Positions 12,885 through 18,493 of a DNA stretch of 64,000 nt are shown here, piece by piece. Source of the stretch: Microbacterium suaedae (GTDB lineage: Bacteria > Actinomycetota > Actinomycetes > Actinomycetales > Microbacteriaceae); NCBI RefSeq assembly GCF_003254645.1, contig NZ_PNFD01000001.1, positions 620,001 through 684,000 on the forward strand, written 5' to 3'. The translations under genes were made by a program, and so were the position numbers. Position 1 is the stretch's first letter, and each line of letters opens with the position of its first letter. The notes beneath the pieces are model-generated. The model was not told where the DNA came from, did not search any database, and saw nothing but the letters and a program-made list of their open reading frames with translations.

Positions 12885-12935
12885 AGCGCGCCCCACGGGC
12901 GTGCCAGGCGGCCCACCGGAGAGGCCCATACCTTC

Positions 12936-13226
12936 ATGCCCACATATGCATACGCCTGCACCGACTGCGGTCACGCCTTCGACGCCGTCCAGTCGTTCAG
13001 CGAGGCTTCGCTGACAACATGCCCCTCCTGCGAGGGTCGCCTGCGCAAGCAGTACGGATCCATCGGCGTCACGTTCAACGGCTCGGGCTTCTACCGCACC
13101 GACTCGCGCGCGACGAACAACACCTCCTCCAGCGCGTCCACCGCGGATTCCTCCTCCGGCAGTGCATCATCGACCTCGGCGACGTCGTCACCCGCGACGG
13201 CGAGCGCCGCGGCGTCGAGCGACTGA
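12936..13226 (+). CDS. FmdB-family zinc-ribbon protein
   Basis: The 96-residue product has an N-terminal zinc ribbon with two CxxC pairs (ACTDCGHAF and TCPSCEGRL) and the FmdB signature MPTYAYACTDCG. A Ser/Ala/Thr-rich disordered tail follows from about residue 60. The mycobacterial homologue is Rv0991c, reported as a chaperone-related zinc-ribbon protein. It lies between the cyclo-ligase and mscL genes on the same strand. Confidence 0.88.
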   Translation: MPTYAYACTDCGHAFDAVQSFSEASLTTCPSCEGRLRKQYGSIGVTFNGSGFYRTDSRATNNTSSSASTADSSSGSASSTSATSSPATASAAASSD

Positions 13227-13279
13227 TCCGTCGCACGGCGAACTCGGTCCGAGGGCCCACGCCCAGAGGGAAGGCAGAA

Positions 13280-13669
13280 ATGTTCCAGGGATTCAAAGAG
13301 TTCATCATGCGAGGCAGCGTCGTCGAACTGGCGGTTGCGGTCGTCATCGGCACGGCGTTCACCGCGATCGTCACCGCCTTCGTCGAGTTCATCGTGAACC
13401 CGTTGCTCGGCGCCTTCGTCCCGACCGGGAACCTGTCCGAGTGGGTGATCGAGATCCCCGGGATCTTCGCGACCGCCCAACTCGGCATCGGCGGCATCAT
13501 CCAGGCCATCATCAACTTCCTCGCGATCGCGCTCGTCGTCTACCTCGCGCTCGTCATGCCGATGAACAAGCTCGCCGCGCGCCGTGCCGCCGGCGCACCC
13601 GCCGAGGAGATCCCCCCGACGCAGGAAGAGCTGCTGACGGAGATCCGCGACCTCCTCGCCAAGAAGTAG
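13280..13669 (+). CDS. mscL: Large-conductance mechanosensitive channel
   Basis: The 129-residue product has the MscL layout. An amphipathic N-terminus (FQGFKEFIMRGSVVELAVAVV) leads into TM1, then a periplasmic loop with NLSEWVIEIPG, TM2 (AIINFLAIALVVYLALVMPM) and a C-terminal helical bundle. It forms the pressure-release pore for hypo-osmotic shock. The ribosome site GAGGGAAGG precedes ATG 13280. Confidence 0.95.
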   Translation: MFQGFKEFIMRGSVVELAVAVVIGTAFTAIVTAFVEFIVNPLLGAFVPTGNLSEWVIEIPGIFATAQLGIGGIIQAIINFLAIALVVYLALVMPMNKLAARRAAGAPAEEIPPTQEELLTEIRDLLAKK

Positions 13670-13985: not shown

Positions 13986-16900
13986 TCAGTCCAGCGGCGC
14001 GGTCTCTTCGCCGACACGGGAGATGTCCGCGCGGATTCCGAGGACGGCGGCGACGCGCTCCGCGACGGCTCGCGGTTCGCTGTAAATGTCGAATGCGTGC
14101 ACCCGGATGTAGTGCCAGCCGAGGCGGCGCAGCACCTGCGGGCGCAGCCGAAGCGACTCACGCAGCGACTCTTCACGCGATTCGGGATCGGACTCGACCA
14201 CGACGGCTTTGCCGTTCGCCTGCGCGACAAGGGGCAGGAGGCCGCGATAGTCGACTTCGACGGCCGCTCCCATCGCACGCAGCTCGCGCGCCAGAGCGCG
14301 GGTGAGCGGATCGGCGTCGACCTCCTGACGGAGCTCCTTCGCGCGCTCCTCGTAGCTGCGCAGAAGGTCCATGAGCATCGCGGCGCCGTGCGAGAAGCGT
14401 CCGTCGTCGATGTCCGGAGGACGCACGCAGGTGACGATGACCATCGAGCGCCGGGCGCGCGTCATTCCGACGGTGAGCAGCCGCTCGCCGTCTTCGCCGG
14501 ACAGGTCGCCCAACTCACTCAGCACGCGGCCGTGACGTGTCGTGCCGTATCCGAGTGAGAACACGACACGATCACGGCTCTCCGCGACAGACTCCTCGAG
14601 CGTGAGCACAGCGAGCGGTTCGGCGGTCTCGCGCGAGACGAAGTCGGCGACGTCTCCGCGCCCTGCGAAAGCCGCCGTGACGGCCGCGCGCACCCGATCG
14701 GCGTGGCGACGGCTCGCGGTGACGACCATGAGCGATTCGCGAGGGCGGTTGATCGCATGCTCGACGACGAGCGTGACGACGCGCGCAACCTCGGCATCGG
14801 GGCTCTCGACCGCGCCCGTCACGGGGTCGGGCGCCCCGCTCCCACCCTCGACGTAGTCGACGGACAGGCTGCCCCGCCCGAGATACGAGCCCGCCCACGG
14901 CAGCGACTGGATCTCACCGCCATAGAAGGCGTCATTGACGAGATGCGCAAGGTCTTCGCCCCCCGCGCGATAGCTGCGCGTGAGCGTCTCAACCGGGAGG
15001 ATCTCCGCAACGCGCTCGAATGCGCTGCGGGCGTCCGCCGGCACCGCGGCTGCATCGGACGCTCGCGTCGATGCCGTCGAGACCTCGAAGCACGTCGGCT
15101 TCTGCGTCACGGGGTCGCCGAATGCGACGATCTGCGATGCCCGACGGATCGCGGGTGCCGCCTCGGCGAGTCCGATCGCCGCCGAATCGACGAGCATGAC
15201 GGTGTCGAAACGCTCATCGTCGGGCAGCTGAGGCACATCGTACGGCGACGCGAGCCACACCGGGGCGAGTGTGCGCAACAGGCGCGGCGCGTCCGCATGA
15301 ACCTGCGCGGGTGTCACATCGCCGCGCATGAGCGCGCGTCGCAGCCGATCCGATTCGTCGGGCTCGTCCACGATGCCGATCTTCCACTGCGCCGCGAGCT
15401 GCCACGCAAGCAGACGTCCCGATGCTGCGGCGTGGGCCTCGTCGACGAGCCGGAAGTCCTTCTCCAGCCGGTCGACGACGCTCGTCGACGCGCCGAGGAG
15501 CGAGGTGTCGGTCCGGAGCAGGTGTTCGAGGGCCGACTGCCACCACGCGAACTCGAGCTCCTCCCCGACACGCGCCTCGTCGACGTGGCGCACCGAGAGC
15601 TCCGTGAGAAGGGGCGACAGGCCGAGCTCGTCAAGCGTCGCGCGGAGTTCGGCGCGTTCCACGATGTTCTCGAACACATCGGATTCGGCCGCGAGGCCCG
15701 CGAGCGTGCGGATGAGACGTGTGACGGGGAGGGCCGCGAGCCGCGTGCCGCGCCCGAGCGCCTCGTCGAGCTTCCCCAGATCGTCCTCGATCCGCTGCCA
15801 TTCGACCTGCACATCGGCGAGCCCGAGGGGGATCTCCGGAGCGCTGACGCTCTCGACGAGATGCTGCCACTGGGAGCGCTGATGCTGGATCCGCGTGAGC
15901 GCGGCATGCATGTCAGCGACGTGCACGCCCGGTCGCACGAGCTCGCGCGAGAGGCGCTTGAGCCGGCGACGCTGGGCGCCGGACATACCGACGGCATCGC
16001 GACGGGATCCGTGCGCCTTGATCATGTCGGACAGGGGGCGCTCGAACGCCACCGGCTGGAATCTGTCGAGCGAATCGCGAATCCCGTGCAGGAGACGCAG
16101 ATACTCGCCGAGCTCGTCGAGCGTCGCGAAAGGCCGCATGCGCGTCTGGGAGATGAGCTCGTAGCCGCGTTCGAGCAGTTCGGGAACGCCGGTGCGGTGC
16201 AGGCGCCCGGCGAGCGCGTGGGCGTCGCGCGCAGCTTCCGTCGTCTCGAAGCTCACTCCGTACCAGGGCGAGTCGTCGGGACCGACGCGGAACTCGCCCA
16301 GGCGGGCGGCGAGCGCCAGTGTACGAGCGGCATCGCTCCGATCTCCCGCGAGCTTCGTCAGGGCGGAGGCGCTGAGCCGAGCGGTGGATGACGGCGGAAC
16401 CGGGAGGCTCGCGAGCCGCGTCAGCTCGCGCGTGATGTCGAGGACGGACACTCCGAGATCTTCGCGCGTGCGCACGAGCGCGTCCCTGTAGTCGCGGAGC
16501 ACCGAACGCAGCCGCACGAGCGCATCGTCGACGTCCGAAACGCTGGGCTGGGCAGCCTTCTCGTTGCGCCCGATCGCCCGGATGAGATCGGACCGCAGAG
16601 ACGTCGGCGAAACGGCGAGTCCGTCGAGATGGATCCCTCGGAGCCGGTGCGCGACACCGTCGAGGGTCGAGCGGCGAGCGCTCACGACGAGCACGCGCTT
16701 GCCCGCGCGGACGAGCTCTCCGACGGCGTTGATGACGGTCTGCGTGCCCCCCGTCCCCGGGAGGGTGTGCACGGCGAGCGACTGACCGGCCATGATCCGG
16801 GCGAGGACTGTCTCCTGCTCGGCGTCCGCGTCGAGAAGCAGAGTGTCGGAGGCTGGTGCGCGGTCGTCGGGCGCCGTGGGCATGGCAACCGGACGAGGTT

Positions 16901-17636
16901 CCCGCACTGCCCGCAGATCGTCCTCATGTCCGCCGAGCGCGTTGAGGAGCACGTGGTCGACGCGGGCGAGATCTCGAGACATCGGCCCTGCGACGTCGGC
17001 GAACGTCGACACGACGAGGCGCGCCTTGACCGAGAACGTCTCGACGTGCGACGTCAGCGCGCGCAGACGGTCGATGACGGGCTGCGGCTGGAACAGGCCA
17101 TCCTGGTAGGCGAGCGAGGCGAGCGCCTCACCGTCGAGTTCGATGCCGAAGTGGTCGCGTGCGGCACGCAGCAGTTCGGGATTGACGACGAAGCCCCCGC
17201 GCAGCTTGAGCTCGAAGTCGGCATGGTGGCGGCGAAGGCCGAGCGGACGAAGCAGGACGGGCGCTGTGAAGCGCTCGGTCCCGACGCGCCAGGATGCGAG
17301 TCCGACAGCGAGGCGTACGGCGTCGATTCCGCGGGCTGTGCGCAGCTCGACGTTCTTTGCGGCGATCCGCTCGGCAGCCAGGCGCGCTCCGCGCAGCGCG
17401 ACCTCGTCGCGGAACAGGTTCGACAGCAGCGTCGAGCGCCCCGTGATGAACTGCGGCAGGCTGCCGGGGTGCGCGGTCGTGATCTCGACGAAGGATCCCG
17501 GCTCCTCCCGGTATCGCAGGAGCGCGGACTCGCCACCCAGTCCCCCGGCGCACTCGCGCAACCGCTCGCGCTCTTCATCCGCGACGTGCGCGATCGGCAC
17601 GCCGGGCTCGGCCACCTGGAGATCGCTCGGATTCAC
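13986..17636 (-). CDS. SF1-helicase-like protein with degenerate ATPase and C-terminal nuclease-like domain
   Basis: About 1216 residues, starting at GTG 17636 behind GGAGG (5 nt). The Walker A site reads LPGTGGTQT near residues 292-300: the invariant Lys is replaced by Gly. Motif II is LVDSAAI (DEx to DSA). Motif III-like VAFGDPVTQKP and motif VI-like GMTRARRSMVIV are kept. The last 100 or so residues (VEVDYRGLLPLVAQANGKAV onward, ending in the HYIRVHAFDIYSEP region) resemble the Vsr/REase-fold domain at the end of DUF4011-type helicases. ATP binding is therefore probably lost, leaving a structural or nucleic-acid-binding role. The ancestral role may be DNA repair or defence. Confidence 0.75.
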   Translation of the reverse strand: MNPSDLQVAEPGVPIAHVADEERERLRECAGGLGGESALLRYREEPGSFVEITTAHPGSLPQFITGRSTLLSNLFRDEVALRGARLAAERIAAKNVELRTARGIDAVRLAVGLASWRVGTERFTAPVLLRPLGLRRHHADFELKLRGGFVVNPELLRAARDHFGIELDGEALASLAYQDGLFQPQPVIDRLRALTSHVETFSVKARLVVSTFADVAGPMSRDLARVDHVLLNALGGHEDDLRAVREPRPVAMPTAPDDRAPASDTLLLDADAEQETVLARIMAGQSLAVHTLPGTGGTQTVINAVGELVRAGKRVLVVSARRSTLDGVAHRLRGIHLDGLAVSPTSLRSDLIRAIGRNEKAAQPSVSDVDDALVRLRSVLRDYRDALVRTREDLGVSVLDITRELTRLASLPVPPSSTARLSASALTKLAGDRSDAARTLALAARLGEFRVGPDDSPWYGVSFETTEAARDAHALAGRLHRTGVPELLERGYELISQTRMRPFATLDELGEYLRLLHGIRDSLDRFQPVAFERPLSDMIKAHGSRRDAVGMSGAQRRRLKRLSRELVRPGVHVADMHAALTRIQHQRSQWQHLVESVSAPEIPLGLADVQVEWQRIEDDLGKLDEALGRGTRLAALPVTRLIRTLAGLAAESDVFENIVERAELRATLDELGLSPLLTELSVRHVDEARVGEELEFAWWQSALEHLLRTDTSLLGASTSVVDRLEKDFRLVDEAHAAASGRLLAWQLAAQWKIGIVDEPDESDRLRRALMRGDVTPAQVHADAPRLLRTLAPVWLASPYDVPQLPDDERFDTVMLVDSAAIGLAEAAPAIRRASQIVAFGDPVTQKPTCFEVSTASTRASDAAAVPADARSAFERVAEILPVETLTRSYRAGGEDLAHLVNDAFYGGEIQSLPWAGSYLGRGSLSVDYVEGGSGAPDPVTGAVESPDAEVARVVTLVVEHAINRPRESLMVVTASRRHADRVRAAVTAAFAGRGDVADFVSRETAEPLAVLTLEESVAESRDRVVFSLGYGTTRHGRVLSELGDLSGEDGERLLTVGMTRARRSMVIVTCVRPPDIDDGRFSHGAAMLMDLLRSYEERAKELRQEVDADPLTRALARELRAMGAAVEVDYRGLLPLVAQANGKAVVVESDPESREESLRESLRLRPQVLRRLGWHYIRVHAFDIYSEPRAVAERVAAVLGIRADISRVGEETAPLD

Positions 17637-17875
17637 GCCGTCCTCCGATCCGGACAGCGCCGCAGAGCCCTTGATACGCCACACACGCGCAAGGCTACGC
17701 GCGGCCTCGCCGATTCTTGCGTCGGATCGCCGCGGTTCCCGCGATTGAGCGCCCGAATTCAGGTCCCCGCGCATCCGGGGTCAGCGTGCACACATCGACG
17801 GATCTCGCCGCTCTCTCCACAACGCCCTCCCCGCGGGCCCCGCGCTCGACGACGAGAGCGGCGAGGATGGGGAGC

Positions 17876-18493
17876 ATGAGCGATGACGAGACATCCACGA
17901 CTGGGGTCATCACGGGCGCCGACGGGCTGACCCGACCGACCTGGGCCGAGCTGAGCGACCTCCTGCGCGAGTACTACGACACCGAGTGGGGCATGCCCGT
18001 CCGCGACGAACAGGGCGTCTTCGAACGGCTCAGCCTCGAGGCTTTCCAATCCGGGCTCAGCTGGGCCACCGTGCTCGCGAAACGTCCCGCCTTCCGACAT
18101 GCGTTCGCGGGATTCGACCCCGATGCCGTGGCGGAGTTCGGGGATGACGACGTGGACCGGCTTATCGGCGACGCAGGGATCATCCGCAATCGCGCGAAGA
18201 TCCTCGCCACGATCGATAACGCGCGGGCGACCGTCGCCCTCCGTGAGCAGGGCACCGACCTCGCAGAGCTGGTGTGGAGCTACCAACCGGACGAGACTCC
18301 TGCGCCGGTCACGGCCGCGGAGGTTCCGTCGACGAGCGACGAGTCCGTCGCTCTCTCGAAGGAGCTCAAGCGTCGTGGCTTCCGCTGGGTCGGCCCCACG
18401 ACGATGTTCGCGTTGATGGAGGCCATCGGGATCATCGACACACACCTGATCGGAAGCCATCGCCGCGGCACGAGCGGCGTCTGGACGAACTGA
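17876..18493 (+). CDS. tagI: DNA-3-methyladenine glycosylase I
   Basis: The 205-residue product removes 3-methyladenine from DNA. Family motifs are present: YYDTEWGMPVRDEQGVFERL, LEAFQSGLSWATVLAKRPAF with the catalytic Glu of LSLEAFQSGLSW, and the C-terminal GFRWVGPTTMFALMEAIGIIDTH. The start is taken at ATG 17876; an in-frame ATG at 17867 is possible. It stands alone between the helicase-like gene and tRNA-Arg. Confidence 0.93.
   Translation: MSDDETSTTGVITGADGLTRPTWAELSDLLREYYDTEWGMPVRDEQGVFERLSLEAFQSGLSWATVLAKRPAFRHAFAGFDPDAVAEFGDDDVDRLIGDAGIIRNRAKILATIDNARATVALREQGTDLAELVWSYQPDETPAPVTAAEVPSTSDESVALSKELKRRGFRWVGPTTMFALMEAIGIIDTHLIGSHRRGTSGVWTN

Follow-up and report, generated by a model that had tools for sequence, protein, structure and literature searches.

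A helicase-like core gene with a dead-looking motor, kept across Microbacteriaceae and related families

What is a large helicase gene kept for once its motor appears to have lost the residues that drive it? The question is raised by a gene on the reverse strand of a 64,000-nucleotide stretch of Microbacterium suaedae (assembly GCF_003254645.1, contig NZ_PNFD01000001.1, positions 620,001 to 684,000), which we call the window and whose own positions are used throughout. An earlier note on this DNA had read the gene as an intact DUF4011-type helicase of superfamily 1 (SF1) without its Walker A lysine, and had suggested a selected non-ATPase role, such as a scaffold or decoy. Our analyses uphold the intact, selected gene with a dead-looking motor but correct the register of motif II and the DUF4011 label. 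On balance, we consider it probable that the product is a pseudohelicase with an ATP-independent role borne by its fold, descended from an SF1B helicase-nuclease resembling ProA and PDC-S37 that turned into a core gene. Neither an account of the gene nor a paper on PDC-S37 was found in open-licence PubMed Central (PMC) articles.

The gene and its parts are listed below, numbered by residues of the 1216-residue window protein; handles beginning with f, g, L and G stand for families, genera, loci and genomes.

13986–17636 (−): pseudohelicase gene, 1216 residues from a GTG at 17636, frame open; an alternative ATG at 17774 would give 1262 residues
16827–17636 (−): N-terminal domain (1–270), with the conserved motif HPG(S) at 56–59, W116 and N152
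16737–16766 (−): degenerate Walker A loop TLPGTGGTQT (291–300), G297 (16746–16748) at the lysine position
15534–15560 (−): ELEFAWWQS (693–701), the most conserved nine-residue segment (rank 1 of 1208, 36 genera)
15186–15191 (−): degenerate motif II (Walker B), V816-D817 replacing D-E
15096–15122 (−): motif III-like FGDPVTQKP (839–847), GD kept
14967–14984 (−): motif IV-like LTRSYR (885–890), R890 present in 100% of examined family genera
14547–14582 (−): motif V-like ESRDRVVFSLGY (1019–1030), RD kept, the QGxE of intact orthologues lost
14445–14471 (−): motif VI-like VGMTRARRS (1056–1064)
13989–14351 (−): decayed MTES_1575/Vsr-like nuclease domain (1096–1216), P1135 in place of Asp, D1150 and GW (1173–1174) kept

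Catalytic centres, fold and family membership

The frame is open from end to end, as had been claimed from the window alone, the homologue match begins within the first 12 residues at 52 of 55 loci, and the gene is single-copy in its own genome. The Walker A loop reads LPGTGGTQT (292–300, at 16737–16763) and the lysine codon has become GGC. The loss of the lysine seen in the first reading is thus real, and the proposed check of whether it is clade-wide has a clear answer: among 97 distinct readable genes from 64 genera of Microbacteriaceae, the window's gene counted once, not one has lysine at this site, the residues being 77 G, 6 A, 4 V, 3 Y, 2 S, 2 I, 1 L, 1 T and 1 R. In a 56-row alignment of loci nearly all from Microbacterium, the lysine is absent from all 54 rows that cover the loop (the window and 53 loci; L043 and L052 miss it), with the variants GTGSMQT in L004 and L005 and GTGGMQT in L046. 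A functional P loop elsewhere in the protein, named in the earlier note as grounds for abandoning its reading, was searched for over the whole window protein, and no second GxxxxGK[ST] was found; among 69 family proteins checked, six carry a string of this kind (five AQFITGKT or ARFITGKS, one GYELIGKT) and 63 do not.

Motif II had been read as DSA in place of DEx, rightly as a loss but one residue off: in the alignment, V816-D817 stand at the D-E of intact orthologues, consistent with the profile match to IGHMBP2, and the position of the Mg-binding Asp is V and that of the catalytic Glu is D. Across the family, the former is V, L, A, M or I in 64 of 64 genera and the latter D in 63 of 64; DE is found in 0 of 64 family genera as against 18 of 18 intact rows. 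Motifs III and VI are recognisable in the alignment, as the first reading had it, and motif IV is as well. The Vsr/REase-like (restriction endonuclease-like) C-terminus noticed at the outset is there as a weak match, 24.3 bits to Pfam REase_MTES_1575 (PF18741), but stays under the gathering cut-off of 38.2, and the nuclease Asp of intact rows is P1135. With K297 and motif II replaced and the nuclease Asp gone, the motor and nuclease centres both look dead. Among the residues invariant in intact rows, dead rows have lost K297, D816, E817 and the QGxE of motif V; those common to both kinds of row include H56, P57, W116, N152, Q274, W458, W590, W698, D811, GD 840–841, E949, H978, R981, R1021-D1022, D1150 and G1173-W1174.

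The predicted fold is that of a helicase. In comparisons with the PDB, an AlphaFold2 model built from 36 rows (mean predicted local distance difference test, pLDDT, 67; predicted template modelling score, pTM, 0.44) matched Ighmbp2 at Z 19.9, Dna2 at 19.1 and Upf1 at 18.9 over about 240–330 residues; Senataxin was also among the best matches and Aquarius lower. In Foldseek, two of 277 matches reached E ≤ 0.001, both to Senataxin, and HelD of the Mycobacterium smegmatis polymerase appeared as a weak row (Z 12.9 in the structure comparison). A strand-loop-helix is still predicted at the degenerate Walker A loop. A single-sequence search of the PDB gave no match at E ≤ 1; a profile built from 12 rows, some intact and some dead, found 18 sequences there, of IGHMBP2, Dna2, Upf1/Nam7, Sen1 and Senataxin-like proteins. 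Because structural matches and profile search agree, the window protein is, by predicted fold, an Upf1-like SF1B helicase with two RecA-like lobes. The marks of an active SF1B enzyme, the Walker A lysine and the Walker B Asp-Glu, are both missing from it, and it shows the combination by which a pseudohelicase is recognised, a helicase fold with catalytic residues lost in a gene that is retained.

Family assignment is less direct. The window protein scores 280.1 bits against ProA (NF058533; curated cut-off 1500) and 283 bits against PDC-S37 (PADLOC), the best stretch for both running from the helical insert through the nuclease; against Hhe (NF042953), it scores 137.7 bits over the helicase core, under a curated cut-off of 2000. 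A weak DUF4011-like stretch lies at residues 90–156 of the N-terminal domain, but its 13 bits are under the gathering score of DUF4011 (PF13195), 22.2. Two intact orthologues, L141 and L137, pass this model (32.0 and 26.9 bits) and REase_MTES_1575 (70.7 and 73.7 bits), and score 800–837 bits against ProA and PDC-S37, again under ProA's 1500; the DUF4011-type label given in the earlier note thus suits them and not the window protein. As the latter falls short of the ProA, Hhe, DUF4011 and MTES_1575 cut-offs, we file it as a pseudohelicase derived from this group rather than as a member of it. In the excerpted text of PMC3710099, the MTES_1575 Vsr-type endonuclease is described from a Microbacterium testaceum protein of different, longer architecture, and in that of PMC10250203, a DUF4011 gene of Pseudomonas aeruginosa is a core gene flanking a defence hotspot.

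Retention, selection and loss across the order

A homologue is present in 396 of 398 genomes and 85 of 85 genera of the family, including genomes of 0.9–1.5 Mb; the search of the 398 gave no match in G094 and G184, and the best E value is below 1e-70 in all but two of the 396, the weaker matches (G124, G387) coming from assemblies of more than 200 contigs each. In the order, the figures are 292 of 297 genomes and 94 of 95 genera, and all 30 family genomes searched again, mostly distant or small, carry the gene. Among the matches listed, about 150 each for the family and order searches, frames are open over the whole match. One stop falls in the matched stretch of each of two of the 30 genomes, G067 and G015, at an end, since both have long open frames, of 1213 and 1175 residues; frame faults in two of 55 loci (L052 is split into frames, L031 loses its end) are perhaps assembly errors. 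The loop decays further in several small genomes, to LPGCGYTQT or, in G015 (L105, L212; a single contig of 927,303 bp), to TPGAQVTQA within an open 1175-residue frame; G030 (L099, contig of 1,760,810 bp) carries the gene with LPGTGSTQT. G015 is the smallest single-contig family genome that we saw, and it still keeps the gene. The gene is therefore a near-universal chromosomal core gene of the order and not a lone dead copy.

Its sequence is under purifying selection comparable to that of neighbouring core genes. The median pairwise ratio of nonsynonymous to synonymous substitution (dN/dS; Nei-Gojobori, dS 0.05–1) is 0.270 over 1357 pairs from 54 rows, beside 0.238 for galU, 0.214 for GNAT, 0.251 for tag (85 pairs), 0.174 for HNH (38 pairs; 16 rows for each of these two), 0.307 for 5-FCL and 0.553 for mscL; with non-independent pairs and GC-rich DNA, these values are comparative only. 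The mscL-like gene, at 0.55, lies above its neighbours in the same test. Within the pseudohelicase gene, ratios of means give 0.118 for the P-loop stretch and 0.196–0.295 for five other segments. The P-loop segment ranks 42 of 1208 in conservation over 36 genera, and the residues around the lysine site are P in 94%, G in 100%, G in 97%, T in 94%, Q in 97%, T in 88% and N in 100%, with the site itself G in 52%: the loop is conserved around a catalytic position that varies freely. In the same ranking, motif II comes 305th, the nuclease motifs 825th and 692nd. Near-universal retention, purifying selection and a loss that is both family-wide and repeated thus give strong support to the early reading of a selected gene with a dead-looking motor. 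A pseudogene or a sequencing error is ruled out by the agreement over 64 genera and the purifying selection.

Lysine-intact orthologues are found in two families of the order, f5 (two of two rows) and f18 (most copies, from genera g102, g116, g134, g140, g142 and g158), with G[PA]PGTGK[ST]QT (e.g. GPPGTGKSQT) in the loop and DEAS (FDEASQ) in motif II. Three f18 genera, g110, g152 and g165, have no lysine; g165 (L224, L226) reads TPPGTGAS[QR]T in the loop and EE in motif II, so that the Glu is kept, an apparent early stage of decay in a mostly intact family, as if the lysine went first. In sixteen further families of the order, several resting on one or two rows and f13 not being readable, no readable orthologue row has the lysine: most f6 rows have Q at its site, f7 rows A or N, and f16 rows H or L, and f9 and f14 retain the gene with no GTG left in its loop (PPGVDVPGT). 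The 74 rows from the rest of the order include four repeats (L176, L185, L233, L262), leaving 70 distinct rows, 53 without lysine, 15 with it (one being the ProA paralogue L166) and two unreadable (L150, L223). In several f6 and f7 rows (L128, L135 and others), the motor is dead and the D and E-D positions of the nuclease are still in place; the two centres thus decay separately, and a nuclease without a motor of its own is possible in these families. At least one f6 genome, G402, carries both a dead orthologue and, on a different contig, a canonical intact ProA (L166, G402:C12:58648-64431); searches of the window's genome with DUF4011, the protein itself and ProA found no active paralogue.

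Beyond the order, an intact orthologue used as query across the class drew matches from 59 of 148 genomes, many of them to partial stretches only. Family f87 of the same class contributes, among the matches listed, ten genomes with a full-length homologue, and other f87 genomes may lack one; all ten rows (L280–L289) have GRTQ[TS] in the loop, with K changed to R, and ED or DD in motif II, a loss parallel to that in the order. The loop of f75 is GPPGTGRSQT, and f94 is intact.

How often the lysine went was counted by parsimony on trees with the trait columns masked. As sampling of f18 and f87 improved, the counts were 1, 2, 5 and 4 changes, the first tree leaving out 10 of 70 rows and the second 24 of 90, and the last two being chosen subsets of 54 and 24 rows; all come from quick searches with the dead copies on long branches. 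Parsimony alone gives no direction, and we read the changes as losses because every outgroup row, whether canonical ProA or a phylum-level relative, is intact. On the 24-row set, forcing all lysine-less rows into one clade worsens the log-likelihood by 105 and is rejected (approximately unbiased test, p-AU 0.000143), and on the better-sampled trees (4–5 changes), the lysine appears to have been lost several separate times.

The surroundings of the gene are often shared as well. Three neighbouring features in the window are the following.

12885–13223 (+): frame with an FmdB-like zinc-ribbon gene, near the gene at 15 of 21 loci, window included
13019–13669 (+): mscL-like gene, its real start inside the frame; its cluster of open frames is near the gene at 16 of 21 loci, window included
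17879–18493 (+): DNA-3-methyladenine glycosylase I-like gene (tag), the divergent neighbour, identified by translation

The FmdB and mscL counts come from an all-against-all comparison of open frames at 21 loci, a crude clustering in which antisense frames of the gene cluster too, and the names used for neighbours (FmdB-like, mscL, tag, 5-FCL, galU, GNAT, HNH, mntR, serC, cold-shock) are those that we take them to deserve. At least one window neighbour (mscL, 5-FCL, galU, GNAT, HNH, mntR, serC or cold-shock) lies near the gene at 17 of 20 loci from 14 families. The two intact f5 loci are among them, as is one of the two intact f18 loci, and gene order thus backs the orthology of the window's gene with the intact ones. 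An antisense frame of 562 residues (14703–16391, +) overlaps the gene and has similar counterparts in relatives; such frames are expected in GC-rich DNA, and we do not accept it as a gene.

What the retained protein may do

The window's gene is the orthologue of an SF1B helicase-nuclease of the ProA/PDC-S37 kind, near-universal in the chromosomes of the order, and it has lost its Walker A lysine, its Walker B Asp-Glu pair and its nuclease Asp, with purifying selection holding the remainder. Under the explanation that we prefer, ATP hydrolysis would be dispensable for the job retained, which the fold itself would carry. Binding to nucleic acid, to a partner enzyme or to both would most likely fall to the RecA lobes together with the large helical insert and the nuclease-like domain, and in Microbacteriaceae, the P-loop backbone may persist for its structure, with a lysine site that can change freely. 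By analogy with AddB and RecC, whose SF1 domains are dead, the protein is probably an ATP-independent subunit that binds nucleic acid or a partner. AddB, RecC and Utp25 offer precedents for a scaffold or subunit; a decoy, the other role first proposed, is harder to square with a gene that genomes of about 1 Mb retain. More tentatively, and with less confidence than we would need to favour it, we can sketch a fuller history in which the order's ancestor captured a mobile-type helicase-nuclease (f87 offering a parallel), the motor became dispensable, the lysine was lost at least four times independently, and the result is a near-universal, possibly essential nucleic-acid-binding pseudoenzyme, whose ligand pocket Microbacteriaceae perhaps repurposed.

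Several observations weigh against the pseudohelicase explanation or loosen parts of it. We infer the DNA- or partner-binding role by analogy, and conservation within the gene cannot separate a nucleic-acid interface from a protein one. The model is modest, good in lobe 1A and the helical insert and poor in lobe 2A. Gene order, by the crude clustering of 21 loci, revealed no operon partner; two same-strand clusters of open frames about 0.5–5.5 kb downstream, at 12 and 9 of the 21 loci, are absent from the window and may be antisense frames. Three loci of the 20-locus test (L197, L201, L204) showed no window neighbour. Finally, the count of changes varies with sampling, smaller trees having given 1 and 2, and the losses within f18 depend on a small number of rows, with long branches.

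The main rival, which we think rather unlikely, is that in Microbacteriaceae the protein senses a nucleotide or phosphate ligand that it does not hydrolyse, the ligand gating the binding of DNA or a partner. Three residues whose place in the nucleotide pocket we assume from other SF1 helicases are kept over 64 family genera, Q274 in 98%, R890 of motif IV in 100% and R1060 of motif VI in 94%, and leave room for a ligand pocket; the strongly kept flanks of the variable lysine site (88–100%) and the lowest dN/dS of the six segments compared, at the P loop, would suit it too. As we understand these enzymes, however, loss of the lysine and the Mg-binding Asp usually abolishes nucleotide binding, and f9 and f14, lysine-less as they are, keep the gene even with GTG missing from its loop, so that a ligand is not a requirement in every lineage.

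That the protein is an anti-phage effector or decoy that needs no motor, drawn from the ProA/Hhe/PDC-S37 defence group, we hold to be distinctly unlikely. Its best family matches are indeed defence models, but the scores lie far under the ProA and Hhe cut-offs, and near-universal retention, in an often conserved neighbourhood and down to genomes of about 1 Mb, is unlike the patchy occurrence of defence genes. Canonical ProA itself exceeds its cut-off in 3 of 198 genomes of the phylum; the ancestral type thus has a patchy distribution, from which the order's version departs. Very improbable is an ATPase with an unconventional catalytic site: the arginines of motifs IV and VI are kept, D817 stands at the Glu position and f87 replaces K with R, but the family has replaced lysine, Mg-binding Asp and Glu alike, the lysine site varies, and the QGxE of motif V is gone. 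A decaying relic kept by chance is hardly credible, for although motif decay goes further in several reduced genomes, the listed matches have open frames and dN/dS resembles that of neighbouring core genes.

Comparison with known systems

ProA and PDC-S37 give the best profile matches of the window protein, and the intact orthologues reach several hundred bits more against the same models. The ProA model has 1903 positions to the 1216 residues of the window protein, which is without the lysine, the DE and the nuclease Asp and belongs to a core rather than a patchy gene. The likeness to Hhe, the DUF4011 anti-phage helicases, is confined to the helicase core (138 bits), and the Hhe and DUF4011 cut-offs are not reached. 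IGHMBP2, Upf1 and Dna2 resemble the window protein in predicted fold (Z 18–20), with motif positions that agree with the profile alignment; they are active ATP-driven motors with Walker A and B intact, and differ in this from a protein that has neither the Walker A lysine nor the Walker B Asp-Glu.

To our knowledge, the pseudohelicases recognised so far are mostly single subunits (AddB, RecC, Utp25). The inactivated SF1 domains of AddB and RecC recognise Chi, according to the excerpt of PMC4824097; they keep the fold without most of the motifs and are retained for DNA recognition, and RecC also has a dead nuclease-like domain, as does the window protein (excerpts of PMC4824097 and PMC1185551). 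The two differ from it in being UvrD-like and parts of a known complex, the window protein being Upf1-like with a putative partner. Utp25 has been proposed as an essential pseudohelicase with vestigial helicase motifs and a predicted helicase fold, the tested motif mutations having no effect on growth; it differs as a eukaryotic relative of the SF2 DEAD-box proteins that acts in ribosome assembly (all from the excerpted text of PMC9539457). Our analyses point to a core gene of Microbacteriaceae and their relatives that even genomes of about 1 Mb retain, and if the pseudohelicase explanation is true, a protein with a helicase-like core is probably doing a useful job without a motor. As orthologues with a whole motor, intermediate forms and what appear to be independent losses all occur within one order, the question of when a motor protein can stop being a motor becomes directly testable.

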